Of a DNA stretch of 64,000 bases, positions 10,941 through 64,000 are shown piece by piece. The notes beneath the pieces are model-generated. The model saw only the letters and a list, made by a program, of their open reading frames with translations, was not told where the DNA came from and did no database searches. This stretch comes from Arthrobacter sp. StoSoilB20 (GTDB lineage Bacteria; Actinomycetota; Actinomycetes; Actinomycetales; Micrococcaceae), in contig NZ_AP024651.1 of the NCBI RefSeq assembly GCF_019977295.1, forward strand, positions 3,348,001 to 3,412,000. Reading direction: 5' to 3'. Every line of letters starts with the position of its first letter. Position 1 is the first letter of the stretch. The translations under genes and the position numbers were made by a program.

Positions 10941-13219
10941 GAATCCGCCTTCTTCCCGTCACCTTCGTCATTGGTCCCCTCGGGTGCGGAGTCCTTGTAG
11001 TCGAAAGGCAGCGATGTCACGGCAGGAGCCGTGATGGACGCGTTTTCCGGTGTGCTGGTCTGCGTCAGGGCAGCAAGGGAGGCCGCCACGGAGTGGTCGG
11101 GTTCAATTTCCGGAGTGCTGTGGGCCCGCAGGACCACCAAGGACTTCCCGCCGACCATCAGGATCTGGTCGGGCTTGACCACTCCCGCTTCAGCACCTTC
11201 TCCGGCGGTGTCGATCATGACGTCCCAGGCTGCGGCGTACTCATCCGAAGGAATCCGGAAGCCGACTTCTTCCTGGTCTGCGTTGAAATAGAGCAGGAAG
11301 TTGACGTCCGTGATGCGACGGCCCTGCGTGTCCTGGCCATGGATGCCATCACCGTTGAGGAATACGCCAACGGACCGACCCAAGGCTTCATCCCAGTCCG
11401 ACGGGCTCATGGTGCTGGCGTCCGCGTCAAGCCATACGATGTCGGGCAGTCGCTCGCCTTCGCCTCGCAGGACCGGCCTGCCGTCGAAGAAGCGGCTGCG
11501 ACGCAGGCTCGGATGTTTGGCCCGGAGGGCACTGACGGCGGCCGTGAACTCGATCAGGGGCTGGTCCACGTTGTCCCAGTTGATCCAGGTCAGTTCCGAA
11601 TCCTGGCAGTACCCGTTGTTGTTGCCGTTCTGGGTCCTGCCGAGTTCATCGCCGTGCAGGAGCATGGGGACGCCCTGAGACAGGAACAGCGAGGCGATGA
11701 AGTTGCGCTGCTGGCGCGCCCTCAAGCCAAGGACAGTGGGATCATCCGTGGGACCTTCGGCCCCACAGTTCCACGAGCGGTTGTGCGATTCGCCGTCGTT
11801 GTTGCCTTCGCCGTTGGCCTCGTTGTGTTTCTCGTTGTAGGAGACGAGGTCCGCCAGGGTAAAACCGTCGTGGGCAGTGACGAAGTTGATCGATGCCACC
11901 GGGCGGCGGCCCGAGTGCTCGTAAAGGTCCGCGGAGCCGGTGAGCCGGGACGCGAATTCGCCCAGGGTTGAGGGTTCGCCGCGCCAGAAGTCACGCACGG
12001 TGTCGCGGTACTGGCCGTTCCATTCGGTCCATTGCGGCGGGAAGTTGCCCACCTGGTAGCCGCCGGGACCAACGTCCCATGGTTCGGCGATGAGCTTCAC
12101 CTGGGAAACCACGGGGTCCTGCTGGATGAGTTCGAAGAATGTGGAGAGTTTGTCCACATCGTAGAATTCGCGGGCAAGCGTGGATGCGAGGTCGAAACGG
12201 AACCCGTCCACGTGCATCTCGGTGACCCAGTACCGCAGGGAGTCCATCAGCAACTGCAGGGAGTGCGGGCTGCGGACATTGAGTGAGTTGCCGGTGCCGG
12301 TGTAGTCCATGTAGTACTTCTGGTCGTCTTCCACCAGGCGGTAGTACGCGGAGTTGTCGATTCCCTTGAACGAGAGGGTCGGTCCAAGGTGGTTTCCTTC
12401 GGCTGTGTGGTTGTAGACCACATCAAGGATGACTTCGATTCCGGCGGTGTGCAGTGCCCGCACCATGGCCTTGAAGTCCTGGACCTGCTGGCCAGTGTCA
12501 CCTTTGGAGCTGTAGCTGTTGTGGGGGGCAAAGAACCCAATGGTGTTGTAGCCCCAGTAGTTGTTCAGGCCCTTGTCCTGCAGGATGCCGTCATTGACGA
12601 ATTGGTGCACCGGCATGAGCTCGATCGCCGTGATTCCCAGCTTCTGCAGGTGGGAAATAACCGCCGGGTGCGCGACGCCGGCATACGTGCCGCGCTGCTC
12701 CTCCGGCACCTCGGGATGCATCTGGGTAAGGCCTTTGACGTGGGCCTCGTAGATCACGGACTTGTGATATGGAATCCGCAGCAGCTTGTCGCCGTCCCAA
12801 TCGAAGAACGGGTTGATGACGACACCCAGCATCATGTGCGGTGCCGAGTCCTCGTCATTGCGGGAGTCCGGGTCATCCATGTTGTAGGAGAACAAGGATG
12901 GATCCCAGTCGATCTGCCGGTGGATGGCCTTTGCATAAGGATCCAGCAGCAGCTTATTGGGATTGAACCTTTGGCCGGCGTCGGGGTCGTAAGGACCGTG
13001 CACCCTGTAGCCGTACTTTTGTCCGGGTTGGACCTGCGGCAGATAACAGTGCCATACGTAACCATCAACCTCGGTAACTTCTACGCGGACTTCCCCGCCG
13101 TCGTCGTCGAAGAGGCACAATTCCACTTTTTCGGCCTTCTCGCTAAACAGCGCGAAGTTGGTGCCGGTGCCGTCAAAGGTGGCACCCAGCGGATAAGCCG
13201 ATCCAGGCCAGACTTCCAT
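10937..13219 (-). CDS. glgX: Glycogen debranching enzyme GlgX/TreX
   Basis: A 760-residue GH13 isoamylase-type debranching enzyme that hydrolyses alpha-1,6 branches of glycogen. An N-terminal CBM48-like domain ([20 protein letters not shown]) is followed by the barrel with [45 protein letters not shown] and [20 protein letters not shown]. The start is ATG 13219 with AGAGGAG just upstream. A longer frame to 13255 adds 12 residues without a ribosome site. First gene of the trehalose operon; its position before treY points to the TreX role of supplying linear maltodextrin. Confidence 0.93.
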
Positions 13220-13287
13220 GCGTTCTCCTCTTGATGATGCGAACAACTGTTGCAAGCCTACTCATGACCCCGACAACGACAGTAACC

Positions 13288-14865
13288 TTAGGGTCTTGTT
13301 CGGTCGTATTCCGCGCTGAGCGAACCAATCACACGCGGTATCGCCGACATGATCGCGGAAGCTGTAAGGGGCCCTCCGTTGAATTCTTCCGAAGCCTGCG
13401 ATCCAGCCCGCCCGTGAAGGCTCGCAGCAACGGCAGCCAATGCAGCCCAGCGGTCCTCAACGTCCAGGCCCAGGCCGGCATATGCGCCGTCGTCGTCCTT
13501 GATGGATTCCGCGCTTTGGGCGAGCAAAGCGCCCAGGATACCGGCCAGGACATCGCCACTGCCTGCGGTCGCCATCCAGGCCGTGCCTTCGGACTGGCTG
13601 AAAACAACGCCCGACGGCGACGCCACCAGTGTGGTGGCTCCCTTCAGGAGCACCGTGGCGCCGGTTTGTTGTGCGGCCTGACGTACCCAGTGCAGCGGTC
13701 GCGATTCCACGTCCTCCCGCGTCACGGCCATCTCACCGGTTGAGGGCAGCGACTCGAGGAGAGTGGCCAGTTCTCCAGCGTGTGGCGTCAGGATCCAGTG
13801 GGCCGGGCAGTGGTCCGGCAGGAGGCTTAAAGCACCTGCATCCACTACCACGGGCAGATCCGCGGCCAAGGCAGTCGCAGCAGCGGACCTGGCCCGCTCA
13901 AGCTGCTCTTCCCCATCGACGCCGGAGCCCAGCAACCATGCTTGGACCCGGCCGGGTTTCTCCGGTTCCCACAGAGCTTCCGGGGTTTTGGCCAGCACCA
14001 ACTGCGCTACCGCTTGGGGACCGGCGTAACGCACCATCCCGGCGCCCGCGAGGGCCGCCGCATGGACGCCCAGGACAGCGGCACCGGCAAACCGCACCGA
14101 GCCCGCCACAACGCCCAGGACACCCCGCGTGTATTTGTGTGCCCGGCGTCCGGGACGGGGCAGCACTGCGGAAATTTCTGCAGAAGTGAGGCGGCGGAGC
14201 TCCGGCCGGGTGGATTCGAGCAACTCTTCAATGCCGATGTCCACCACCTGGACCCGGCCCGAACAGCCTTCCCCCGGGTCGGTCATGAGGCCTGCTTTGA
14301 CGCCGCCAAACGTCACCGTAACGTCCGCATCCAGCACAGGCCAGTGGACTTCGCCTGTGGTGGCATCCAGCCCGCTGGGCAGATCGCAGGCCACTACCAA
14401 GGCGGGACGCAGTTCCTGAAGGGAAGCAATAAGTTCCGCGGAGGTCCCACGGAGGCCTCCACGGGCACCCGTGCCAAGCAGGGCATCAATGATCACGTCA
14501 TTTCCTGCGCATACGACTGCGAGTTCCTCAGCGTTCCCCGGCTCGAGGTAGAGGGTCCGACCACCGGCTGCCTTGAAGGCTGCCAACGCCTCGGGATGGA
14601 CTTCAGCAGCGGCGAGGACCGCCGTCGTGCGCATTCCCTGGCGTGCCAGCAGCGCTGCCGCAAAGAGGCCATCGCCACCATTGTTGCCCTTGCCTGCCAG
14701 GACGGTGACGCTGGCACCGGCCAGCCGGCGCCGTGTCCTGACTTCGCGTGCTACGGCCTGGGCCAGCCCATAGGCTGCCCGTTGCATGAGAACAGCGCCC
14801 CCACCGGCGTCCAGGTACGGTTGTTCCGCATCCCTGATCTGTTGTCCGGTGAAGGCGCTGATCAT
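13288..14865 (-). CDS. nnr: Bifunctional NAD(P)H-hydrate epimerase / ADP-dependent dehydratase
   Basis: A 525-residue repair enzyme for hydrated NADH and NADPH. The N-terminal YjeF_N epimerase domain (about residues 1-220) carries GKGNNGGDGLFAAALL and VIDALLGTGARG. The C-terminal carbohydrate-kinase-like dehydratase domain carries ILTPHAGELATLL, TVLLKGATTLVA and GSGDVLAGILGALLAQ. The fused arrangement and the length match the bacterial Nnr. It lies 17 bases downstream of acpS and is probably co-transcribed with glmS and acpS. Confidence 0.94.
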   Translation of the reverse strand: MISAFTGQQIRDAEQPYLDAGGGAVLMQRAAYGLAQAVAREVRTRRRLAGASVTVLAGKGNNGGDGLFAAALLARQGMRTTAVLAAAEVHPEALAAFKAAGGRTLYLEPGNAEELAVVCAGNDVIIDALLGTGARGGLRGTSAELIASLQELRPALVVACDLPSGLDATTGEVHWPVLDADVTVTFGGVKAGLMTDPGEGCSGRVQVVDIGIEELLESTRPELRRLTSAEISAVLPRPGRRAHKYTRGVLGVVAGSVRFAGAAVLGVHAAALAGAGMVRYAGPQAVAQLVLAKTPEALWEPEKPGRVQAWLLGSGVDGEEQLERARSAAATALAADLPVVVDAGALSLLPDHCPAHWILTPHAGELATLLESLPSTGEMAVTREDVESRPLHWVRQAAQQTGATVLLKGATTLVASPSGVVFSQSEGTAWMATAGSGDVLAGILGALLAQSAESIKDDDGAYAGLGLDVEDRWAALAAVAASLHGRAGSQASEEFNGGPLTASAIMSAIPRVIGSLSAEYDRTRP

Positions 14866-39252: not shown

Positions 39253-40080
39253 TTACGGGATCGGTACAGGCACGACGCCGAGCGGCGCCAACTGCGCGGC
39301 GCCTCCGTCCGGTGCGGACAGGACCCAAATGCCTTTTTCGTGCACGGCTACGGAGTGCTCCCACTGGCAGGAACGCTTGCCGTCTGTGGTGACCACGGTC
39401 CAGTCGTCGTCGAGGGTGGCGGTCTCGATGCCGCCACGGACCAGCATGGGCTCAATGGCCAGGCACAGACCGGGGCGGATCTTCGGTCCGCGGTGGCCGG
39501 TACGGTAGTTCAGCACATCCGGTGCCATGTGCATTTCCGAACCAATGCCGTGCCCTACATAGTCTTCAAGGATGCCTAACGGCTTGCCTTGGACCGAGGA
39601 CACGTAATCATCAATGGCGTTGCCGATATCGCCGACAAACTTTCCCTTGGCGAGGGCGGCAATACCCCGCCACATGGCAGCCTCGGTAACGTCGGAGAGC
39701 CGCTGGTCTTCGGGATCGGCTGCACCGACAATGACCGTCCGGGCCGAGTCGGAATGCCAGCCGTCCACAATGCAGCCACCGTCGATGGAGATGATGTCAC
39801 CGTCGTTGAGGATCTTGTTTCCAGGGATCCCGTGGACCACTTCCTCGTTGACGGAGGTGCAGATGGTTGCGGGGAAGCCGTGATAGCCGAGGAAGTTGGA
39901 CTTGGCTCCTGCGTCGTTGAGGACCTCGGCAAAAACACCGTCCAGGTCCTTGGTGGTGACGCCCGGCTTGGCCGCCGCAACTGCAGCGTCAAGTGCTCGG
40001 CTCAGGACAAGCCCGGCCTCCTGCATCTTGCGCATTTGCTCGTTGGTCTTGTATTCAATGCGGGGCTGACCGAACGCCAT
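39253..40080 (-). CDS. map: Methionine aminopeptidase, type I
   Basis: 275 residues from ATG 40080 with AGAGGAG upstream. It removes the initiator Met from nascent proteins. Metal ligands are visible in IISIDGGCIVDGWHSDSA (two Asp), VGHGIGSEMHMAP (His), AIEPMLVRGG (Glu) and WEHSVAV (Glu). FPATICTSVNEEVVHGIP is the substrate loop. The frame from 40113 adds 11 residues with no ribosome site. It is normally next to adk but is displaced here by the 5.7-kb biosynthetic operon, whose last gene ends 33 bases upstream. Confidence 0.96.
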   Translation of the reverse strand: MAFGQPRIEYKTNEQMRKMQEAGLVLSRALDAAVAAAKPGVTTKDLDGVFAEVLNDAGAKSNFLGYHGFPATICTSVNEEVVHGIPGNKILNDGDIISIDGGCIVDGWHSDSARTVIVGAADPEDQRLSDVTEAAMWRGIAALAKGKFVGDIGNAIDDYVSSVQGKPLGILEDYVGHGIGSEMHMAPDVLNYRTGHRGPKIRPGLCLAIEPMLVRGGIETATLDDDWTVVTTDGKRSCQWEHSVAVHEKGIWVLSAPDGGAAQLAPLGVVPVPIP

Positions 40081-40113: not shown

Positions 40114-41025
40114 TCATGCTCCGTGCTTGAACCATTTTCCCGCATCGGCCACTGTGGTCGAAATTGGCTCGACTCCCAGCTCCTGCCGGAGTCGATTCAA
40201 GGAGTAGGTCCGCTCACGCCCGAGTTGGCTGACCGCGTACCGGGTGAGCCGCGGATTCCGGCCGCCCAGCCGGGCAATCGCCTCCGAAACTCCGGCAATG
40301 GCCATGGCCGCAGGTTCCGGGAGATACCTGATATTCACTCCCTCCAGTCCAGAGGCGTCGAGGACCTGCCGCAGCACTGCGCCCAGTTCAACCGGCTCAG
40401 CATCGGCCACGTTCACTGCACCCCGGACTTCGGATCGACAGGAGGCCAGGACGGCTTCAGTCAGATTCTCCACGTGGGTCAGTTGGTGCTTGACCCTGGC
40501 ATGTCCGACGCTGAGCAAAGTACTGCGCCTGATGTTGGCGATCAGACGCGGCAACAGCGTCCGGTCACCTGGCCCGTAGACACCGTGGGGGCGCAGTGCC
40601 ACGGCATTGCCGTGACGACGGGCTTCGACGTCGGCGAGCGCCTTGCTGCGTCCGTAAGCGTTCAGGTGGTGCGTCGCTACTTCGTCCTCAGCCCTGTTGA
40701 TGCATGCTTCCCACCATGGGTAGACGCTGGAGCTTGAGATGTGGACCAGGCGGGTTCCTGCGAAAGCCTCTGCAACGGCCCGCGTACCCAGGACGTTGGA
40801 CCGGTGGAAGACCGGAGGAGCACCCCAATCGGCAACATGTGCTGCGGCATGCACCACCGCGTCAACACGGGGAAGCCGGGCGGGCGGAAGACCCGTAAGG
40901 TCCCAGTAGTCCAGTCCGGCCGTGCGCTGCCTGGCGAAGCGAACCACTTCCCACCCCCGCGCCTCCGCTGCGCCGGCTACGGCTCCTCCGATGAATCCTG
41001 TGGCACCGGTGACCGCGATCCTCAT
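40114..41025 (-). CDS. NAD(P)-dependent epimerase/dehydrogenase, OleD/3-beta-HSD-like
   Basis: 303 residues, extended short-chain dehydrogenase. The cofactor loop is VTGATGFIGGAVAG at the N-terminus. The catalytic Ser is in HISSSSVYPW, and Tyr and Lys in NAYGRSKALAD. AAHVADWG, ALRPHGVYGPGDRTLLPRLI and the C-terminal TYSLNRLRQELGVEPIST are arranged as in the 3-beta-hydroxysteroid dehydrogenase/OleD group. OleD reduces a 2-alkyl-3-ketoacid to the 3-hydroxyacid, which is the inferred role here. It is the last gene of the five-gene operon; its ATG overlaps the ligase stop by 4 bases. Confidence 0.85.
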   Translation of the reverse strand: MRIAVTGATGFIGGAVAGAAEARGWEVVRFARQRTAGLDYWDLTGLPPARLPRVDAVVHAAAHVADWGAPPVFHRSNVLGTRAVAEAFAGTRLVHISSSSVYPWWEACINRAEDEVATHHLNAYGRSKALADVEARRHGNAVALRPHGVYGPGDRTLLPRLIANIRRSTLLSVGHARVKHQLTHVENLTEAVLASCRSEVRGAVNVADAEPVELGAVLRQVLDASGLEGVNIRYLPEPAAMAIAGVSEAIARLGGRNPRLTRYAVSQLGRERTYSLNRLRQELGVEPISTTVADAGKWFKHGA

Positions 41026-42764
41026 AGTGCCGCCTTTGGCTGGGAGCGTGTTGCGAACTCCTGCCGCAATGCTGCACGGTCGGGTTTCCTGTGCCGGCCG
41101 CCCGACGGGATGGAATCCAAAACTTCAATATGGTCCGGGAGGGCGGATTCATCGATAAGCCTTGGCAGTTCACGGGCAAGTCTCGACACCAGCGTGCCCG
41201 GATTTTCGCCGGTTGATCCCACCACGGCCAACCACACTGCCTCATCTCCGACCTCATCGGCGACGCCCACCATCACTGCCTGCCGGACCCCAGGGACGCC
41301 GGCGATGACGGGCTCATAAAGCGCCGGGTAGATGTTGGTCTTCCCCCGGATGATCATGTCCTTCTTCCGTCCGATCATCACCAACCTCGGCGCGCTGCCG
41401 TTGTCATTGCCGCTGCCGTGGTCAAGCCGGACCAGGTCCCCGGTGGCGTGCTCCACCATCGGCTCCTCACCCAGATAGCCGTGGCACACGTTGGGACCTC
41501 GAACAAACAGTTCATGGTCTTCAGCCACCCGGATTCCGACGGCGGGAAGCGGCTCCCCGAGGAAGTCACCTTCACCGCTTCCGTCGGGGGCCGTTATTTC
41601 CGCGTTTGTTCCTGAGGCGAAGGCCAGTTTCTCGTGTCCGTCGGCTATGGAGATGGGGAGCGCTTCGGTCATGCCGTAGATCAATTTGAAGTCGATGCCG
41701 GGGAGCAAGTGAACGGCGCGTTTGAGGAATGGTGCCAGAACCGGCGCCGCCCCAAGCATGACCGTCCTGAGGGAAGCAGGCAGCCTGACCGTACCGGCCT
41801 CGATCGAATCCAGGATGGGCGCCAACTGTGACGGCACCAGGAAAAGGTGGGTGGCGCCGTCGTACGCTGTCTTTTTGCCAGCCACAGGCCCAAGCTCGGC
41901 GGCAAGCCGAAGAGGGTCGATGTGGGCGGAAAACCCGTACGCCGGCATGGTCCAGTGCGCACCCGCGATGAGGGCCGGCAGCCCCATCATGAGCTGCTCG
42001 GAGTGGACCCTGTCACCTTCATTGAAGGTGCAGCGCGTGGTGAGTTGTTCAAACCCCGCGGCGAGCGATCCCCGGGTGTGGACCACTCCTTTGGGAGCGC
42101 CGGTGGTCCCCGAGGTGAAGATAATCACTGCCTCCTGGGCCGATGCGCCCTGCCCGTGGCTGGAAACGCCGGCGTCCCATACTTCCTCTACCCCGTTCCT
42201 TGTTGCCAGGTTCCTGACAGGGGTTGCGCCCCTGGGTACACCCGGCAGCCACGGACCTGAGTAATAGTGGCGCACGTCCATGGCACCGTAATCCGGAAGG
42301 AGGAGACCCCTGCTCCGGGCCACCGGATGCAGCGGGCTTTTAGTGCTCAGTGCATACAGTAATGACTCAGCCGCTGCCCAGCGCGGCGATGCGAGGCCGG
42401 CACGGTCCCGGAAGAGCGCGGGACCTATCCCCGGGTCGATAAACACCACCGAGCCACCCGCACGCACGGCACCCAAGGCGAGGGTGAACGCTGCGGGGCT
42501 GGGCCGCACGGAGAACAGCATGCGCTCCCCTGGGCCGAACCCGTCTTCCCTCAGACTGCGTGCCGTAGCCTCGATCCCGTCCACGAGTTCGCGGTAAGTG
42601 ATGGTGTGTCCGGGCTTCACGCGATCGGCGCCCCACCTGACCCTGATGCGGCGGACTTTACCCGGGGCTGTGATTGCAGGGTGTTCCGGGAACCGTTCCG
42701 CTGCCGAAAACACGGCAGCGATCAAGTCGGCAGCGGGTGCCGGTTCAACAGTCGCCTCAGGCAT
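41022..42764 (-). CDS. AMP-dependent acyl ligase, OleC-like
   Basis: 580 residues, ANL superfamily. Motifs are in order: A3 IIFTSGTTGAPKG, A5 YGMTEALPIS, A7 TGDLVRLD, A8 GRKKDMIIRGKTNIYP and the catalytic Lys region RHRKPDRAAL. The stretch SVRPSPAAFTLALGAVRAGG followed by VVFIDPGIG resembles OleC (beta-lactone synthetase) as I remember it. The A8 region is more like ordinary fatty-acyl ligases. It could therefore form a beta-lactone from a 3-hydroxyacid, or simply an acyl-AMP/CoA. The ATG overlaps the P450 end by 8 bases. No carrier-protein domain is attached. Confidence 0.85.
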   Translation of the reverse strand: MPEATVEPAPAADLIAAVFSAAERFPEHPAITAPGKVRRIRVRWGADRVKPGHTITYRELVDGIEATARSLREDGFGPGERMLFSVRPSPAAFTLALGAVRAGGSVVFIDPGIGPALFRDRAGLASPRWAAAESLLYALSTKSPLHPVARSRGLLLPDYGAMDVRHYYSGPWLPGVPRGATPVRNLATRNGVEEVWDAGVSSHGQGASAQEAVIIFTSGTTGAPKGVVHTRGSLAAGFEQLTTRCTFNEGDRVHSEQLMMGLPALIAGAHWTMPAYGFSAHIDPLRLAAELGPVAGKKTAYDGATHLFLVPSQLAPILDSIEAGTVRLPASLRTVMLGAAPVLAPFLKRAVHLLPGIDFKLIYGMTEALPISIADGHEKLAFASGTNAEITAPDGSGEGDFLGEPLPAVGIRVAEDHELFVRGPNVCHGYLGEEPMVEHATGDLVRLDHGSGNDNGSAPRLVMIGRKKDMIIRGKTNIYPALYEPVIAGVPGVRQAVMVGVADEVGDEAVWLAVVGSTGENPGTLVSRLARELPRLIDESALPDHIEVLDSIPSGGRHRKPDRAALRQEFATRSQPKAAL

Positions 42765-43941
42765 TCGCCAACTCCAAACTCTTGTATCCCGGAATGAGAA
42801 CGCCCCTGCTGATACGTCGGTTGGAGATGGTCCAAGGGTGCTGAAGGTACCGGTTCAGCAGCACGTCCAGAGCGGCATTGATCTCGGCCATGGCCAAGGG
42901 CATGCCAATACAGAAGTGTGCACCGGCACCGAACCACAACTGGCGCGCTTCCGGGGGCACGGCCGCGTCGGGATCGAAACCACGCAGGCTTTTGGCTGCG
43001 TGGATGGTGGACAAGAGAATGCGGTCTCCCGCGCGAACCTTGGTTTGCCCGATGAATCCCGGCGCTACCGCATCCCTGAGCATCATCGGCGAAGGCACCG
43101 TGAAGCGCAGCGCCTCATTGACTGCGGCAGGAAGCAGCGCTCGGTCCCGGGCCAGTTCCTCAACCCGACCGCTGTCGTTGAGGAGGGCCACCATCCGCGG
43201 AAGAAAGGAGACCAAAGTTTCGGTGCCCACCATGACAAAAGCACTGATGATGCCCATGGCCTCGTCCTCGGACATTCCCAGTTCCCGGAGCCTTCCGGGA
43301 AACGTCCCTGGATCACTCTCCCGGTATGCCGTTCTGGCCGGTCCGGCCAGGACTCCGACGGCGGAACGGCCCTTGGCGATCTGCCGCACCGTCAGGGTAG
43401 GGCGGCCCAGGCGGACAAGGGAGGAGATCGAAGAGCCAAGATTGAAAAGCTCCTTGTTGGGAAGCCTGCCAGGAGCGTCGTCCGGCACCCCCAGCATACG
43501 GGAGATCACTCCCCCGGCGAGATCCTTGACGCAGTCCACCACATCAACTGAACGCCCCGCGTCCAGTGCCTTGCAGAAGTGTGAGTCGAAGGCTGACGCT
43601 GCGGGTTCCACTATCCCGGCTACCGATCGCGGTGTGAACAGATCACTCAGGCGCTGCCGCAATCTCTTGTGCTCTTCGCCATCCATGTTCACCAAGGCCT
43701 TGGGGCCAACAACAGGAGTCCAGAGGGCACCCGAGCCGGAGGGTCCGTTCTTGATAAACCTCTGTTGGTCCATAAGAACCTCACGGACCAAAGCCGCTTC
43801 GCTGACCAACACCCCCACACCCGGAAGCCTCACCACCGGCTTCAGGCTCCCCAAGCCCCGGATCGTCGGATAAAGCAGCGGATGGGCGCCCCGGTGAATG
43901 CGCCGTTCCCATTGCCCGGCAGTGGATCGGTCCACCGTCAA
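42757..43941 (-). CDS. Cytochrome P450
   Basis: About 394 residues, soluble bacterial type with no membrane anchor. The heme-binding loop is FGAGAHFCIGMPLAMAE with the thiolate Cys. The K-helix ExxR is NEALRF. The I-helix reads AFVMVGTETLVSFLP, in which Gly-Thr-Glu-Thr replaces the usual Gly-x-Asp/Glu-Thr. It should hydroxylate or otherwise oxidise the operon's product, using an outside ferredoxin, as none is encoded nearby. TTG 43941 overlaps the glycosyltransferase stop by 4 bases. GTG 43935 or an upstream start at 43986 (49-base overlap) are alternatives. Confidence 0.9.
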   Translation of the reverse strand: MTVDRSTAGQWERRIHRGAHPLLYPTIRGLGSLKPVVRLPGVGVLVSEAALVREVLMDQQRFIKNGPSGSGALWTPVVGPKALVNMDGEEHKRLRQRLSDLFTPRSVAGIVEPAASAFDSHFCKALDAGRSVDVVDCVKDLAGGVISRMLGVPDDAPGRLPNKELFNLGSSISSLVRLGRPTLTVRQIAKGRSAVGVLAGPARTAYRESDPGTFPGRLRELGMSEDEAMGIISAFVMVGTETLVSFLPRMVALLNDSGRVEELARDRALLPAAVNEALRFTVPSPMMLRDAVAPGFIGQTKVRAGDRILLSTIHAAKSLRGFDPDAAVPPEARQLWFGAGAHFCIGMPLAMAEINAALDVLLNRYLQHPWTISNRRISRGVLIPGYKSLELANA

Positions 43942-44714
43942 CGGATATCCACATGTTCGGGCCGGTACCGGTGGTCTGCGTACCATGCCAAGGTGTTCTT
44001 CAAGCCCCAGGCCTTGACACGGCGCGACGAGCCGAAAACGACAACATCGCGTCGCAGGGCGTAGTTCCGTGTCAGCTTCCTTACCTGGTTGGACAAGGCC
44101 CTGTCCTCATGGAGGTCCTCGATACTGGACCGGGGGAATCCGCCGCTGCGGTGATACATGTCCGAAGTGATGGCCATGTTGCAGCCCGGGAGCATCTGGT
44201 AGGGCCCCAAGTAGCCCTCGCCCTTGTTCCCGGGACGGATGCGACCAAAGAACGAAGCGACCTCCACCGCAAGCAACATCATTCGACGTTCGCCTGCGCT
44301 GATCCCCTCATCAAGCCTCGGATTCAATTGGCCGGCGATCAGTTCCAGCCCGTCCTCGAACGCAGCCATGATCCTTGAAGTCCAGTCAGGGGCGGCGAGG
44401 CAATCGGAATCGGTGCGGGCCAACCATATGGCGCCGTGCTCCACACCGAACCGCATGCCGGTGTCCGCTGCCGCGCCGGTACCCTTCTGCTCCTCAACCA
44501 GGAGGCGGATATCCATCTCTGGATGATCCGAGGCGAACTTTGCCACGATGCTGCAGCTGCTGTCAGTGGAACCGTTGTCCACAACCACCACAGTGAAGTC
44601 CTTGAACTCCTGTGCCGCCAGGGACACCAGGGTCTGACGTACCAATTTTTCCTCGTTCAGCATCGGAACAGCGATGCACAGCGGCCTGGTGGGATCCGTG
44701 CCCGCCGACGCCAT
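43938..44714 (-). CDS. Family 2 glycosyltransferase
   Basis: 258 residues from ATG 44714 (AGGA 9 bases upstream). It has a single GT-A domain with no membrane helix. IAVPMLNEEKLVRQTLVSLA, VVVVDNGSTDSSC and the metal-binding ARTDSDCLAAPDW are the nucleotide-sugar motifs. IEDLHEDRALSNQVR matches the ED base/acceptor region. The sugar donor and acceptor are unknown; in this operon a lipid-like acceptor is plausible. GTG 44750, overlapping the synthase stop by 4 bases, is an alternative start adding 12 residues. The longer frame to 44999 lies over the synthase gene and is rejected. Confidence 0.88.
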   Translation of the reverse strand: MASAGTDPTRPLCIAVPMLNEEKLVRQTLVSLAAQEFKDFTVVVVDNGSTDSSCSIVAKFASDHPEMDIRLLVEEQKGTGAAADTGMRFGVEHGAIWLARTDSDCLAAPDWTSRIMAAFEDGLELIAGQLNPRLDEGISAGERRMMLLAVEVASFFGRIRPGNKGEGYLGPYQMLPGCNMAITSDMYHRSGGFPRSSIEDLHEDRALSNQVRKLTRNYALRRDVVVFGSSRRVKAWGLKNTLAWYADHRYRPEHVDIR

Positions 44715-44746
44715 GTTCACCGTTCCTGGCTGCGGGTTCACGGCCG

Positions 44747-45790
44747 TCACAGCCGCACCACAGCCATGCCCAGGCTCACGCCGCCGGCCAGGCCCACCAA
44801 GGCCACGAGATCTCCCGGTCCACACCGCCCACTGTCCATTGCCAGTTTCAGTTGCAGGGGAAGGCTGACCGAGGCAAGGTTGCCGAAGTCCTCCACGGAA
44901 GGGACCAGCAATTCCATGGGGACACCCGCGCGCTTGGCAAAGATATCGCGGTACGGAGCACTGACCTGGTGGACGCACACCACGGCGAAATCCGTCCATG
45001 ACAACCCAAGCCGGTCAAGGGTTTCGTCGAGGAGCCCGGACCCCAGATCGAGGAATGCGTCCTTCAGCTTCTCGCCATCCATGCTGAAATAGCTGGCCTC
45101 CGGGTCGCGGGGAAAAGCCGATCCGCCTGCCGAGAGCGTTCCCACGGACCAGTGGCTGCTTCGGGCAGTGAATGCCATGGACAGGATTCCGGCCGCTCCT
45201 TCGGGTCCTTGTGGCTCCGGGTCTGCCGCCTCCAGCAACACTGCGGCACCGCCGTCGCTCATGGTGTAACCCGGAAAGCCGGACGCAAAAGTCTCGAAGT
45301 CCGGAACTGTCCATCGGACCGCCCTCGACGGGGATTCGCCAGTGGCCACCACAACTCGGCGGTAGCGTCCGGTGGCGATCAGGGAGTCCGCTACCTCCAC
45401 ACCGTTGAGGAAACTGTTGCAGGCGTTCTTCACGTCCATTACGGGGCAGGCGAGCCCCAGCTTTGCCGCAACCATGTGCCCTGTAGCCGGCTCCACCATG
45501 TCCTGGCTGGCTGAAGCGAAAATCAGGAGGTCCACGTCCGGAGCCTGAAGTCCGCACCCGGCCATAACCTTGGCAGCAGCGTTTGCCGCGAGGTCGGAGG
45601 CTTGTTCGGTATCAGCCATGACGCTCCGGAATCGGATGCCCGTAACGCGTCCTATCAGCCCCTTCGGGACCCGAAACCCTGGACTGCACTCACCAATACG
45701 GCGCTCGACAGTGGCCGTGTCCAACCGTCCGGACGGCAGGTAAACCTCGAGCCCCGAAATCCGGCTGTGCCTGGATAAAGCAGTGTGCAT
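44747..45790 (-). CDS. 3-oxoacyl-ACP synthase III / OleA-like condensing enzyme
   Basis: 347 residues from ATG 45790 (GGGGGA just upstream). Thiolase fold with the FabH-type triad: Cys124 in KNACNSFLNG, His274 in VCVHQVSAPY and Asn304 in FGNLASVSLPLQL. Family members decarboxylatively condense malonyl-ACP with an acyl-CoA (FabH) or join two acyl-CoAs head to head (OleA). The AMP ligase and OleD-like reductase beside it favour the OleA-like reaction, but the sequence alone does not decide. It is the first gene of the five-gene operon. A terminator hairpin lies only about 30 bases upstream. Confidence 0.87.
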   Translation of the reverse strand: MHTALSRHSRISGLEVYLPSGRLDTATVERRIGECSPGFRVPKGLIGRVTGIRFRSVMADTEQASDLAANAAAKVMAGCGLQAPDVDLLIFASASQDMVEPATGHMVAAKLGLACPVMDVKNACNSFLNGVEVADSLIATGRYRRVVVATGESPSRAVRWTVPDFETFASGFPGYTMSDGGAAVLLEAADPEPQGPEGAAGILSMAFTARSSHWSVGTLSAGGSAFPRDPEASYFSMDGEKLKDAFLDLGSGLLDETLDRLGLSWTDFAVVCVHQVSAPYRDIFAKRAGVPMELLVPSVEDFGNLASVSLPLQLKLAMDSGRCGPGDLVALVGLAGGVSLGMAVVRL

Positions 45791-45821: not shown

Positions 45822-45860
45822 AAGGGTGTGCCCCGCACCAATGGTACGGGACACACCCTT
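45822..45860 (-). terminator. Terminator-like hairpin after adk
   Basis: Arms 45822-45840 and 45842-45860 are complementary at 17 of 19 positions (AAGGGTGTG/CACACCCTT outer part), closing tightly at the centre. It lies 39 bases past the adk stop and should end the secY-adk message. Transcription past it would be needed if the next operon has no promoter of its own. Confidence 0.7.
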
Positions 45861-45899: not shown

Positions 45900-46478
45900 C
45901 TAGACGGCCTTGGCCGACTCGATCGCCGTGAGGACACGATCGGTAACTTCATCGATACCGCCAATGCCATCAACCTGCGTGAGGATGCCACGCTCGGCGT
46001 ACTTGGCCACAACGGCTTCGGTCTGCTCGTGGTACAGATCGAGGCGGTGACGGATCACGGTCTCGTTGTCGTCCGAGCGGCCCGTTTCCTTGGCACGGCC
46101 AAGGAGACGGGTAACCAGTTCTTCGTCGTCGGCGGTCAGCTGGAGCACGACGTCGAGCTCCTGCTGTCCTTCGGCGAGGATCTGGTCCAGGTAATCAACC
46201 TGGGCAGTGGTGCGCGGGTAGCCGTCCAGGAGGAAGCCGTTCTCCACATCGCTCTGGCTCAGGCGGTCGCGAACCATGTCGTTCGTAACACTGTCCGGAA
46301 CGAAGTCGCCTGCGTCCATGTACTTCTTGGCTTCGATGCCCAAGGGGGTTTCGCCCTTGACGTTGGCACGGAAGATGTCGCCGGTGGAGATGGCGACTAC
46401 GCCGAGGCGCTCGGAAATCCGCTCAGCCTGTGTACCCTTGCCCGAACCGGGAGGTCCAATGATCAGCATTCTCGTCAT
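45900..46478 (-). CDS. adk: Adenylate kinase
   Basis: 192 residues, the short-LID form. P-loop IGPPGSGKGTQAERI at the N-terminus, AMP-binding ISTGDIFRANV and FLLDGYPRTTAQVDYLD, then GRAKETGRSDDNETVIRHRL in place of the long zinc LID. It interconverts AMP, ADP and ATP. Its ATG overlaps the secY stop by 4 bases. Confidence 0.97.
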   Translation of the reverse strand: MTRMLIIGPPGSGKGTQAERISERLGVVAISTGDIFRANVKGETPLGIEAKKYMDAGDFVPDSVTNDMVRDRLSQSDVENGFLLDGYPRTTAQVDYLDQILAEGQQELDVVLQLTADDEELVTRLLGRAKETGRSDDNETVIRHRLDLYHEQTEAVVAKYAERGILTQVDGIGGIDEVTDRVLTAIESAKAV

Positions 46479-59785: not shown

Positions 59786-62700
59786 TTATCGGATTCCGTC
59801 CTTCTCCTGTCCCCACGGGGTGGGGCCAGGCATGGCATTGTTCGGTGGACCGTCCTGCGCCGATGCACTGTCCGGGCTGGCACCATCCGGCCGTCCGCCC
59901 TGCTGCGGCACACCACCAGGCACGCCACCCGACCAACCGCCCTGCTGCGGCACACCACCAGGCACGCCACCCGACCAACCGCCCTGCGGCGGCACACCAC
60001 CAGGCACACCGCCCGACCAACCACCCTGCGGCGGCACACCACCTGGCCCACCACTAGGCACACCACCCTGCGGCGGCACACCACCTGGCCCACCACTAGG
60101 CACACCACCCTGCGGCGGCACGCCACCCGACCATCCGCCCTGGGAAGGCACACCGCCCGACCAACCACCCTGCGGAGCCACCCCACCCGGAGCACCACCC
60201 GGCCCACTACCCGGGGCCGCACCTCCTGCAGGTGCCTGAGGCTTCCTGTTCAGGCGCCAAACGGCCAGGACAATCAGTGCCAGGGCGACCAACGCAAGCA
60301 TGGCGAACGCGTACGAACGCAGCGCCCACATAACGCTGAGCGCTACGCCTGCAGCACCCCACCACACCATGGCCCTCTCGGCCAGCAGCAACCCGGCAAC
60401 AAGAAGCACCGCGTGCCCTACCAGGACATACAGTTGCTGGGGGGCGGTCCCGCCGAAGATGGTTCCCAAAGACGTCGTCGACAGCAGACCCGCGGCAATG
60501 CAGAGCCGGAGCAGGCCTTCGCTGCGCTGCCCCTTGATGTAGCGCATCCCTGCTAAAACAGCCGCGGCCAGGACGTACCACTGCACTGCCCAGAACCAGT
60601 CCGGTGCGGCGTCGCCAACGAAGAGCACAGCCCGCTGAAGGGCTGCCAGGGAGACCAGCGCCGCTACTTCACCCGTCAACCATTTATTGAAGGGCGTCTC
60701 AACAACAATCAACACACCGGTAGCGACCACCAGGACAAATCCCACCCAGGACGTCTGATCACGAATCATCCCAGCAGTGGCCGATGAAGCCAGGGCTACG
60801 GCCGCTGTTGCCGCGAGGGCATTTCGCCGCAACGGCTGCAGGAGAACCGCAGCCCCGCCCAGCCACTTCATCGCGTAAAGAAGCACGGCCGTACCAACAC
60901 CACCTACGAGCCAAGGTGCGTAATCGCTCCACACTCCAAGTGCAGCACCCGGGAGCAAACCGTCGACGGCGGGAACGGCGCCCACCAGCACGGACGGGGC
61001 GGCACCGAGGTACATCGCCGGCAACTGCTCAACATGCGAGGCAGCGAACAGCACTGCTGCGAGGACCAGCACCGCCAGCCCGGTCAGGGCGTTTGAGACG
61101 TCAAGGGCCAACAGGCCCCCGGTCATGACGAAGGCAAGCGATGCAATGAACCAGAACCAGCGCTCGGCAACGTGGGCTGGGGTTTGTCCGGCGCGGATGA
61201 CGGCATACACAACCCGGGCAACCACAATCACGACGGCAAGCCCCAAAAGCACCACCGGCACTTGTGCCCTGTCCAGAAGTGGTTGGAACAACCATGTGCC
61301 CGCCGGGAACGCCAGGGACGGTCCGGCAGCAATCACGCCCCCTGCCATGGCTGCGGCACTGAAGTATTGGGATCCCCGGACGCCCAGGAGACGCCAAACG
61401 ATCGCGGCGGAGGCTGCGGAGAGCGCCAACTGGACGATAACCACCCAACGGCCACCGCCGTCGTAGGATCCCGCGAGCAGGTACACCGCGGGCAACAGGA
61501 GCTGGGCCGCCAAAGCAGCCCAGACCGCCGACTGCTGGAAGGCAATGTCCAGGCCTCGGCTGCGTTGGATCCACGTGATTGCGTGCTGCAGCACAAGGAC
61601 CACGGCCATGGTCATGGAAACCGTGGTGGTCGACTCTGAGAGATCGCCCACCAGGACTCCGATGAAAGCCAAGGACAAAACACGCAGGCCCAGCATGTAG
61701 GCGCCACGAACGTAGCGGCCCTTTTCCACTGCCACCATGAAGCCGCTGTAGGCTGCGAAGACTCCTAGGAGAATCTCCACATCCCGGACACTTCCGAAGC
61801 GCAGGGCAAGGAGCAGCCCGAGGGTCACGGGCGCGAAGATCCAGGCCGCCGGGTGCCGTCTCAGGACTACGCCGCAGAGAACTGCCGCGAGAGCAGTCGA
61901 AATTGCCACCACCCCGGGTTGCCAACCCCCACGCAGGAACTGCTCTCCCGAGCCGGCGGAAACTGTCAGGATGGTCGCCGCTCCGGCCATCACCGCTACC
62001 ACCACGTAGGCATCCACCATGGAAGCGTGCGGGAAGCGTCGGCGGATATTTTGCTGCAGCGGCAGGACCAGTTGCAGAGCCGCCACTCCTGCTACCACCA
62101 ACGCCACAGTGGGAAGTTCGCCGGCGACGCCAACGCTCCAACCACGCCGCAGCGCCTCCAGGTAGGCCGAACCGGCCAGGACGGTACCTGCCACCCGTGC
62201 CAGCCACCAGTAGGACTGGCGGTGGAAGGAAGCGGGAATTCGGAGGGCGGTGGCGGCAAAGTACGCCACCGCTGCCAGGAGCACCACGTTTGCCAACGCC
62301 ATTGAGACGGCGGCCCACGCAACCCCTCCAGCAACCATGACCGACGCCGGGGCGACGACTTCGCCGAGGGTAGGGCGCCAACTCCCCGCCGCAGCGCTGT
62401 CCTGCCGTGACGGCGGAAACAACAATGCACCAGAGGCCACACCGGCAAACAACACCAGGAGCACGGCCGTGACAATGAAGGGATGACCGGCAGTACGGTC
62501 CACCAATGGCAGAACCAGCAAGCCTGCTGCAGCGAGCCCCCAGAACCCGGAAAGTGTAGCCTGCGGAGCAAGCAGTTCCACCCCCGCACGCTTCAGGCAC
62601 GCACTGGCCAGTTGCTGCGCAGCTGCTGCTGCAACGAGGGCAACCAAGGAAACGGCAATCCTGTCCGGACTGTCCGGGAAGATACCGGCAACTGCGATGG

Positions 62701-64000
62701 GCACCGCCGCCGTTGCCGCTGTTCGTGCTGCTAGGACCAGCACAGGCCTGAAGGAGACCGGATGCACGGCCGCCCGCACAGACCAATACAGGGCGGCGGA
62801 TGCCAGCAATGCCGACACCGGCCACGCGCCCAGCAGGCCCATGAACGGCAGGGCCACCGTGAGGACAACTGCGGGCGCAAACTCGGTTCCGGCGCCCAGC
62901 TTCCAGCCCACCAGCATTGCCGTCACCATCGTGGCAGCGAGCGGAAGATACGTTGGCAGTTCATAGGTCCCGAGGCCCAACACCACTGTGAGGACGGCAG
63001 CGGTGGCCAACTGCAGGCCCAAGCAGGACACGGCGTCGTTCCACCAGTGCCGCAGCTTCAGGGCCCCTCCCCCAAAAGCAACTCCCAAGGATTGAACGCC
63101 GCAGCAAATGACTGCCGCAAACAGCACCGTACTCACATCCGAAGTGGTGTCCCACACCAGTCCCAACAACGCCAGCGTCAGGGCCATGCGCGCCGCGTAG
63201 ACGTGCTGCAGCCTGTACCGGGCCTTCGGAATGAAGGCCATCACGGCAAAGTAGGTGCCACACATCAACATGACCAGCGGGTATTCGCCCCGGGCAAGGA
63301 GTTGTGGGGTGACCGTCACAGCCAGCGCCACCAAGGGAACCACATAGGGATGGAGCACCATCAGCGGACGGACATAGAGCGGCGGCAACCACCTGGGTCG
63401 AACCAACGCTCCCAACGTGAGCACAATGGCGATTCCAATCAACGCCGTGAAATACCAGACCAAAGCGCCGCCGAGCACGGACACTCCGGACCAGGCTGTC
63501 GAGACAACGAAACTGAGGGAAAGGAAGGCCAGGACCTTGTTGTCCAGCCGTACTGCTGTGTAGGCATATACGGCGGTCCCCAAAATTGAGGTCACCAGCC
63601 ATGCTGCCGGACCGTTGGGCAGTACGAAGTTGTACATGGCGAGCCCTGTTACGGGGATCAGGGCCAAGCCCGTTCCAACGAACGCAATTGCGGCAGGACG
63701 CAGGCGCGGCAGTTTGGCGTGGATGATCAACCCGGCGACGTAGAACAGGGTGGTAATGAAACAGATGCCTGCGAAACGGAACAGTTCCGGCAGGCTTGTC
63801 CCGACGAACAAGGCACCGGCTGCCACCAGCAGAAGACTGGCGACGTAGAGCGTGATGTTGATGTTCTGCTGGTCACGCTTGGCTTTGCGCGCGGCTGCCG
63901 CCTCCGGAGTTTCCCGCGCAATGGGAACCTGCTGGCGCACTGCCGGTTGCGGCTGTACCGTCGCGGGACGCTGCGGCACCGAGGGAGGTTGGGAACCCGA
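59786..64000 (-). CDS. Giant multi-pass membrane protein with Gly/Pro-rich repeat tail (5' end outside window)
   Basis: At least 1,405 codons are open and the frame continues past the right edge; GTG 63979 may or may not be the start. After a Pro/Gln-rich cytosolic start come a charged segment (EAAAARKAKRDQQNINITLY) and, I estimate, some 35-40 hydrophobic helices in a row. The C-terminal 140 residues are soluble and low in complexity, with GGVPPQGGWSGGVPGGVPQQ-type units. The build resembles the large actinobacterial membrane proteins grouped as SCO7613 C-terminal domain proteins; that match is from memory. Function unknown. Confidence 0.75.
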   Translation of the reverse strand, partial: SGSQPPSVPQRPATVQPQPAVRQQVPIARETPEAAAARKAKRDQQNINITLYVASLLLVAAGALFVGTSLPELFRFAGICFITTLFYVAGLIIHAKLPRLRPAAIAFVGTGLALIPVTGLAMYNFVLPNGPAAWLVTSILGTAVYAYTAVRLDNKVLAFLSLSFVVSTAWSGVSVLGGALVWYFTALIGIAIVLTLGALVRPRWLPPLYVRPLMVLHPYVVPLVALAVTVTPQLLARGEYPLVMLMCGTYFAVMAFIPKARYRLQHVYAARMALTLALLGLVWDTTSDVSTVLFAAVICCGVQSLGVAFGGGALKLRHWWNDAVSCLGLQLATAAVLTVVLGLGTYELPTYLPLAATMVTAMLVGWKLGAGTEFAPAVVLTVALPFMGLLGAWPVSALLASAALYWSVRAAVHPVSFRPVLVLAARTAATAAVPIAVAGIFPDSPDRIAVSLVALVAAAAAQQLASACLKRAGVELLAPQATLSGFWGLAAAGLLVLPLVDRTAGHPFIVTAVLLVLFAGVASGALLFPPSRQDSAAAGSWRPTLGEVVAPASVMVAGGVAWAAVSMALANVVLLAAVAYFAATALRIPASFHRQSYWWLARVAGTVLAGSAYLEALRRGWSVGVAGELPTVALVVAGVAALQLVLPLQQNIRRRFPHASMVDAYVVVAVMAGAATILTVSAGSGEQFLRGGWQPGVVAISTALAAVLCGVVLRRHPAAWIFAPVTLGLLLALRFGSVRDVEILLGVFAAYSGFMVAVEKGRYVRGAYMLGLRVLSLAFIGVLVGDLSESTTTVSMTMAVVLVLQHAITWIQRSRGLDIAFQQSAVWAALAAQLLLPAVYLLAGSYDGGGRWVVIVQLALSAASAAIVWRLLGVRGSQYFSAAAMAGGVIAAGPSLAFPAGTWLFQPLLDRAQVPVVLLGLAVVIVVARVVYAVIRAGQTPAHVAERWFWFIASLAFVMTGGLLALDVSNALTGLAVLVLAAVLFAASHVEQLPAMYLGAAPSVLVGAVPAVDGLLPGAALGVWSDYAPWLVGGVGTAVLLYAMKWLGGAAVLLQPLRRNALAATAAVALASSATAGMIRDQTSWVGFVLVVATGVLIVVETPFNKWLTGEVAALVSLAALQRAVLFVGDAAPDWFWAVQWYVLAAAVLAGMRYIKGQRSEGLLRLCIAAGLLSTTSLGTIFGGTAPQQLYVLVGHAVLLVAGLLLAERAMVWWGAAGVALSVMWALRSYAFAMLALVALALIVLAVWRLNRKPQAPAGGAAPGSGPGGAPGGVAPQGGWSGGVPSQGGWSGGVPPQGGVPSGGPGGVPPQGGVPSGGPGGVPPQGGWSGGVPGGVPPQGGWSGGVPGGVPQQGGWSGGVPGGVPQQGGRPDGASPDSASAQDGPPNNAMPGPTPWGQEKDGIR
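59890..60225 (-). repeat. Coding tandem repeat (Gly-Gly-Val-Pro-x-Gln-Gly) in the giant membrane protein
   Basis: About 15 imperfect units of 21-45 bases, with the plus-strand core CCACCCTGCGGCGGCACACC, encode PQGG(W/V)-SGG-(V)P(GG) units. Several adjacent units are identical over 30 or more bases, a sign of slippage or recombination. Confidence 0.85.

Follow-up and report, generated by a model that had tools for sequence, protein, structure and literature searches.

What does a five-gene set of lipid-type enzymes make, and how did it come to sit inside the spc ribosomal-protein operon, between adk and map? We addressed these questions in a 64,000-nucleotide stretch of the genome of Arthrobacter sp. 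StoSoilB20 (contig NZ_AP024651.1, positions 3,348,001 to 3,412,000), hereafter the window. Its minus strand encodes at 40114–45790, in this order, a KASIII-type synthase (KAS), a GT2 glycosyltransferase, a cytochrome P450, an AMP-binding ligase (LIG) and a short-chain dehydrogenase/reductase (SDR; RED in gene orders). An earlier note, made from the sequence letters, had described these genes as an OleA/OleC/OleD-like operon lacking OleB and had not mentioned the ribosomal-protein site. Judged by sequence, the operon on balance probably specifies a lipid pathway that resembles OleA/C/D, lacks OleB and includes two tailoring enzymes.

A conserved five-gene operon

The gene set, coordinates and strand given in the earlier note were borne out: all five genes are in place on the minus strand (Table 1), and each of the five proteins exceeds its Pfam cut-off. 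The synthase and GT2 genes overlap by 4 bp, the P450 and ligase genes by 8 bp, and the ligase and SDR genes by 4 bp. The GT2 and P450 genes overlap by 4 bp if the P450 starts at the TTG at 43941 and by 49 bp if it starts at the ATG at 43986; the TTG is the probable start, and with it the 4–8 base overlaps previously described hold. Compared with four relatives, the five genes have ratios of nonsynonymous to synonymous substitution rates (dN/dS) of 0.046–0.148, with adk and map at 0–0.048, synonymous sites being near saturation in the more distant pairs.

A synthase scan of genome contigs returned 176 relatives, the best 80 of which were used for locus comparison, some loci being one genome reached twice. 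The order KAS-GT2-P450-LIG-RED on one strand, which the earlier note had proposed to look for in other Micrococcaceae, is complete in 66 of these 80 loci, in Micrococcaceae and other families; the 14 incomplete loci comprise six that reach a contig end and eight variants. Hosts include Arthrobacter, Paenarthrobacter, Saccharopolyspora, Lentzea, Pseudonocardia, Cellulosimicrobium, Promicromonospora, Streptomyces and Microbacteriaceae. Because dN/dS is low and the same order recurs in this way, the five genes are not a chance run of open reading frames. They are a real, conserved, uncharacterised lipid operon.

The synthase family carries the catalytic residues of OleA

Glu100, Cys124, His274 and Asn304 of the synthase, the last three correctly named in the earlier note, are invariant by alignment column in 81/81 aligned relatives and in all 36 rows of alignment A1. 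The synthase therefore has both the Glu-Pro of OleA (E117) and its Cys-His-Asn triad. The Glu-Pro aligns with that of Xanthomonas 3fk5, an entry deposited as FabH that carries the EP...NACL pattern of OleA, whereas the aligned FabH has Phe at this place. Both the Glu-Pro and the motif NACN occur in 108/108 family synthases, a set in which some loci are again one genome reached twice. One study names the Glu-Pro as the mark of OleA, reports that X. campestris OleA cannot do without it, and finds it missing from just two of the OleA sequences in its alignment (PMC7064751).

The criterion of an olefin-gene survey, EPxx[AS]x(14,18)DxxNACL (PMC7158056), has no match in the synthase, where Gly stands at the [AS] place. 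The pattern cannot see the subfamily, because Asn replaces the Leu that follows the catalytic Cys in canonical OleA. A profile built from the family scores four canonical OleA proteins of the genus at 115–121 bits and the genome's own FabH at 79. With 124 bits on the NCBIfam fabH model (TIGR00747; cut-off 292) and the Glu-Pro present, the synthase does not qualify as FabH. Taken with the trio context described below, the Glu-Pro and the family profile led us to reject ordinary FabH. From these sequence comparisons, the synthase is a separate subfamily, with NACN in place of NACL, that carries the Glu-Pro and Cys/His/Asn of OleA.

Subfamily synthases stand beside clear OleC and OleD proteins

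Wider flanks were examined for 22 of 33 synthase loci from a sample of the class, and all 22 synthases carry EPA(T/N)...D(V/I)xNACN. Six loci have the window order, six have KAS-GT2-LIG-P450-RED (one with an extra GT2), and one more has the latter order with no RED detected. Two are KAS-GT2-LIG, two hold the synthase alone, and five are KAS-LIG-RED trios (L227, L229, L230, L233 and L234) with no GT2 or P450. Synthases from the trios group inside the family in the synthase tree, and the ligases of all five group with canonical OleC (support 100/99). In L229, the one trio run against NCBIfam, the ligase scores 542 bits on the olefin beta-lactone synthetase model and 536 on PRK09274 (over its cut-off of 478), and the reductase, at 359 bits on the OleD model (cut-off 580), is OleD-like. 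Subfamily synthases thus appear beside clear OleC and OleD proteins, and this partnership is the main link to Ole. The absence of GT2 and P450 from the trios fits tailoring roles for these two enzymes. In L227 and L229, a large reading frame that reads as a polyketide synthase lies directly upstream of the trio; these loci could be combined polyketide/beta-lactone clusters.

Among the variant loci, L040 has KAS-LIG and L188 KAS-P450. In Thermomonospora (L082, about 10986–13349), GT2 and AMP ligase form one open reading frame adjoining KAS, and neither a P450 nor an OleD-like reductase of the family was found at this locus; L217 is probably the same contig. Since some variants have no ligase, lactone closure would not be obligatory in all lineages.

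In whole-genome samples, each including this genome, the synthase was found in 7/149 genomes of the family (E≤1e-30), 13/347 of the order (E≤1e-60) and 33/394 of the class (E≤1e-50). GT2 was found in 18/121 genomes of the genus (E≤1e-40) and in only 3/396 of the phylum, the last count being probably a lower bound because few candidates per genome were scored.

Reductase, ligase and tailoring enzymes

The Tyr and Lys of the SDR active site are conserved in 67/67 reductases by alignment column. The OleD model NF042422 matches 19 proteins in the genome; the window reductase scores highest among them, with the runner-up at 61.5 bits. The family reductase profile scores four canonical OleD proteins at 137–151 bits and other SDRs of the genome at 57 or less. 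By active site and by its greater nearness to OleD than to other SDRs, the reductase is OleD-like at the sequence level.

In the ligase alignment, the A5 Glu and A7 Asp are present in 75/75 sequences and the A10 Lys in 74/75 (one gap), while the P-loop Lys is replaced by Arg in 15/75 and by Gln in 1/75. The A5 motif is YGMTExLP-like (Leu 74/75, Pro 75/75); canonical OleC has this form, and the five other ligases with a recognisable A5 motif do not. The SVRPSP...DPGIG block reported previously is present in the window ligase. In a tree with a small outgroup of eight other ligases, OleC and the family ligases group together (98/91), with the family as sister to, and outside, OleC; a smaller tree does not settle the order of OleC, the family and one more ligase. 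A phylogenetic check of the ligase suggested earlier therefore came out on the OleC side in the tree, against few outgroups, with scores that do not favour OleC, and we regard the ligase as a probable divergent sister branch of OleC that is ambiguous by score.

The heme Cys of the P450 is conserved in 75/77 sequences (two gaps) and the Glu of ExxR in 74/77 (two gaps, one Gln). The DxD and HED motifs of GT2 are present in 76/76 by alignment column; a structure model of GT2 (pLDDT 86.7) gave only general GT-A matches in Foldseek (TMq about 0.6), with no specific donor. In many loci, including L036, L041 and L044, a second P450, 32–36% identical to the window P450, is divergently transcribed just upstream of KAS; its hosts include Promicromonosporaceae/Cellulomonadaceae.

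No canonical olefin pathway was found in the genome

A canonical OleBC query matched this genome in its ligase half only (residues 391–853, E≤1e-10), leaving the OleB half unmatched. The same was seen in three other genomes with the window-type cluster (E≤1e-10), and full-length matches were obtained in 3/3 same-genus genomes with canonical OleA, one of them the query source. At this threshold, the absence of OleB previously noted for the operon extends to the whole genome. PF08541 matches lie at three places, read as FabH, a type III polyketide synthase and the window synthase; the FabH gene adjoins a FabF-like gene, identities here being read from sequence. Genome-wide model matching gave no hit as strong as those of canonical OleA or OleD, and the canonical OleABCD pathway was rejected on the lack of OleB and of such hits. 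At the type III polyketide synthase-like gene (G000:C1:2591023; L102:5148-8133), methyltransferase-like and FAD-oxidoreductase-like genes follow, as read from sequence.

Within the genus, 55/101 genomes have a match over the PRK09258 cut-off (459–467 bits), which we treat as canonical OleA; all 15 such loci examined carry the OleA pattern, and the 4 examined with flanks have OleBC and OleD-like neighbours. Fifteen of the 101 genomes have the window-type synthase and three have both types, an anti-correlation with Fisher p = 0.005, uncorrected for kinship.

A proposed pathway and its alternatives

From the observed gene set, residues, overlaps, conservation, selection, family relationships and site, we infer every reaction, the order of the steps, the product and its role. 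The synthase would use OleA-type chemistry to condense two fatty-acyl thioesters head to head: Cys124 would hold one acyl group, and Glu100 from the adjacent subunit would deprotonate its partner. The SDR would reduce the resulting 2-alkyl-3-keto acid to a 2-alkyl-3-hydroxy acid, which the ligase would adenylate and most likely close to a beta-lactone, the weakest step. The P450 may then hydroxylate one alkyl chain and GT2 glycosylate the new hydroxyl, giving a glycosylated product, either a dialkyl beta-lactone or a 2-alkyl-3-hydroxy lipid. In favour of this route stand the Glu-Pro, the family profiles, the trios, the ligase tree and the conserved active sites described above, and an earlier proposal of the same chemistry for the same protein set (PMC7064751).

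A number of results weigh against this proposal. The synthase reaches 159.4 bits on NCBIfam PRK09258 (NF006720), where the cut-off is 285 and canonical OleA of the genus scores about 460 (the model itself is not named OleA), and the FabH-type PRK09352 follows closely at 150 bits. Its family stands apart from both canonical OleA and FabH in the tree, with moderate support (84/94), and Foldseek with its AlphaFold model (pLDDT 88.8, KASIII fold) ranks FabH above OleA by E-value. The window ligase scores 83 bits on the NCBIfam OleC model (cut-off 900, or 850) and 136 on PRK09274 (cut-off 478), although a canonical OleC domain of the genus also falls below both cut-offs, at 298 and 356. A Saccharopolyspora ligase of the family scores higher on a long-chain acyl-CoA ligase model (146) than on PRK09274 (129). 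The family ligase profile gives OleC 135–143 bits and fatty-acyl-CoA-type ligases up to 137, and pairwise the window ligase gives 93 bits with a fatty-acyl-CoA-type ligase and at most 60 with actinobacterial OleC. The reductase reaches 108 bits on NF042422 (cut-off 580). Three Micrococcaceae genomes (L185–L187) hold KAS-P450-RED without GT2 or ligase, and a search of the L185–L188 genomes for a close ligase elsewhere gave best matches of 1e-18 or weaker, with none at 1e-10 in one of the four (positive controls, 3e-105 and 1e-113). Finally, the OleA homologue of Actinoplanes atraurantiacus reacted with none of the acyl-CoAs tested, with little protein recovered (PMC7064751). The OleA/C/D direction of the earlier note therefore stands on the Glu-Pro, the best OleD match in the genome and the OleC-side tree, and not on curated cut-offs, all of which are missed.

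These findings leave room for a pathway in which condensation and reduction occur as proposed and the ligase makes an acyl-AMP or acyl-CoA for transfer, acting on the 2-alkyl-3-hydroxy acid or on a starter fatty acid, so that the product is an open-chain hydroxylated glycolipid. We consider this possible, though unlikely. The ligase branches apart from OleC, falls short of the OleC models and is as near to fatty-acyl-CoA-type ligases by score; ligase-free variants exist, and the single GT2-ligase reading frame of L082 hints that activation is coupled to glycosylation. However, the tree places the family ligases with OleC against the few other ligases included, and their A5 motif is the one seen in canonical OleC. 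A lipid or beta-lactone product, as first suggested, is kept here as the most likely outcome, with closure of the lactone ring predicted from sequence.

More doubtful still is a FabH/CerJ-like synthase that forms a beta-ketoacyl unit or passes one on, in a cluster for a small specialised metabolite unrelated to head-to-head lipids. FabH 4ryb is the top solved-structure match by sequence, at 120 bits, with X. campestris OleA 3row at 100, and the lead of FabH in Foldseek points the same way. By TMq, OleA reaches 0.86 and FabH at most 0.83 among the matches listed, 3fk5 (0.85) being set apart, so that Foldseek does not separate OleA from FabH. An invariant OleA-type Glu-Pro, a family profile that scores OleA above FabH, and partnership with true OleC and OleD-like proteins argue against such an enzyme. 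A phylogenetic comparison of the synthase, as suggested in the earlier note, set its family apart from FabH and from canonical OleA alike, with moderate support. That the five genes are mere neighbours with no common pathway, or a decaying remnant, is strongly disfavoured and very improbable. The cluster is absent from many relatives, as the GT2 count in the genus illustrates, and the L187 reductase is split over two frames; yet the full order recurs in the 66 loci although only 17 of the 80 lie at the adk-map site, dN/dS is low in all five genes and their active sites are conserved.

The cluster occupies a site in the spc operon

All 17 Arthrobacter/Paenarthrobacter loci among the best 80 lie at the adk-map site; for the remaining 63, adk and map were not seen in the flanking DNA examined. 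A terminator-like hairpin follows adk, a similar one is present in the adk-map gap of clusterless relatives (for example L160, L161 and L163), and a search of the 33 bp between the SDR gene and map found no terminator-like site. With a hairpin after adk and none found before map, map may be transcribed together with the cluster. A promoter scan returned one site, with 1.6 expected by chance. In Arthrobacter sp. Leaf337 (L038:8790-9669), the cluster is preceded by several partial copies of adk that overlap one another, through either an assembly fault or a tandem partial duplication.

Table 1. Genes and signals at the adk-map site of the window
Feature	Position	Strand	Features of note
adk, upstream flank, spc ribosomal-protein operon	45900..46478	-	
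Intrinsic terminator-like hairpin, 18 pairs	45822..45860	-	3' of adk, upstream of synthase
KASIII/thiolase-fold synthase, OleA-like	44747..45790	-	Glu100-Pro101, Cys124, His274, Asn304; Asn after catalytic Cys
GT2 (GT-A fold) glycosyltransferase	43938..44750	-	GTG start; DxD (D114, D116), HED (E215, D216)
Cytochrome P450	42757..43986 (or ..43941)	-	Heme Cys (FGAGAHFCIG) and ExxR intact
Class I adenylate-forming (AMP-binding) ligase	41022..42764	-	Probable divergent sister branch of OleC beta-lactone synthetases
SDR reductase, OleD-like	40114..41025	-	YxxxK intact
map (methionine aminopeptidase), downstream flank	39253..40080	-	33 bp past reductase

We then considered the history of the site. 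In 25/25 same-genus genomes sampled from those without GT2, adk and map are adjacent, 81–227 bp apart. For four of the 25, the match between the gap and the 3' end of a reductase gene is better than in any of 200 shuffles, which preserve single-base composition only; a fifth is equalled by one shuffle and the remaining 20 by 3 to 196. In the clearest case, L160, GKWLKHGA can be read by eye in frame with the reductase, about 30 bp upstream of map, and the L161 gap reads GKWLKQEA. Reductases at other sites have the same C-terminus as far as the aligned Trp, so these matches are most simply scars of cluster deletion and not captured intergenic DNA, as far as sequence can tell. On that reading, part of the genus descends from an ancestor that had the cluster, and it was lost at least there, and recent insertion was rejected as the whole story. 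In synthase trees, the genus lies nearest Pseudonocardiales (83/84; 95/81) and not other Micrococcales, which suggests that the cluster was acquired by transfer.

Elsewhere in the window, Rfam and tRNA scans of the full 64 kb gave no matches. At 59786–63979 the minus strand encodes a polytopic membrane protein of 1397 aa that ends in a tail of GGVPPQGGWSGGVPGG-type repeats and matches no Pfam family at E≤0.001; a strong AT skew at 60–64 kb coincides with its gene.

Significance and comparison with known systems

Beta-lactones are reactive warheads, and glycosylated head-to-head beta-lactones would, to our knowledge, form a new compound class if the proposed pathway is true. Twelve of the 15 same-genus genomes with the window-type synthase lack canonical olefin genes. 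It is tempting, though rather unlikely, to see the product as an envelope glycolipid tied to growth, one that replaces the Ole olefins and is made from the spc operon by a cluster co-transcribed with map. Lipid profiles could be compared naturally between strains bearing the cassette at the adk-map site and close relatives in which that site holds a scar. Although the synthase has matches in about a twelfth of the class genomes, full-text literature searching, with subscription papers mostly outside its coverage, found no product for a GT2/P450-bearing OleA/C/D-like cluster, and the published olefin survey pattern misses the subfamily (PMC7158056).

The operon resembles several described systems in part. 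FabH shares with the synthase its fold and Cys-His-Asn triad, but the aligned FabH lacks the Glu-Pro and the genome has its own FabH elsewhere. In the OleABCD system of Arthrobacter relatives (oleA-oleBC-oleD), the synthase, the ligase and the reductase belong to the superfamilies seen here and the OleA catalytic residues are the same, whereas the window operon lacks OleB, has an NACN synthase and adds GT2 and P450; the two synthase types co-occur in only 3/101 same-genus genomes. The lipstatin and nocardiolactone clusters have oleACD without oleB, and their producers make beta-lactones (PMC7064751). Compared by description, both share with the window an OleA/C/D-like set that lacks OleB. We know of no GT2 or P450 in the cores of these two clusters.

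The earlier note knew of no described pathway with this exact set, a claim that has to be withdrawn: the same five protein types without OleB were described in 2020 for Actinoplanes atraurantiacus, as OleA, glycosyltransferase, OleC, P450 and OleD with no OleB in the genome (PMC7064751). Condensation, reduction, hydroxylation, glycosylation and lactone closure to a glycosylated beta-lactone were proposed there; the OleA homologue was active on p-nitrophenyl hexanoate, and the available text reports no isolated product (PMC7064751). Compared by description, the listed Actinoplanes order has OleC before P450, whereas the window has P450 before the ligase; that order matches L190 and L191, which have family members of all five genes, as do four more of the wider loci. 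The Actinoplanes locus itself does not appear among the matches listed. The idea of an OleB-less glycosylated beta-lactone cluster is already in print (PMC7064751), and the window operon is a variant of it. What is new here is the synthase subfamily, its architectures, the ribosomal-operon site and the deletion scars in some relatives.

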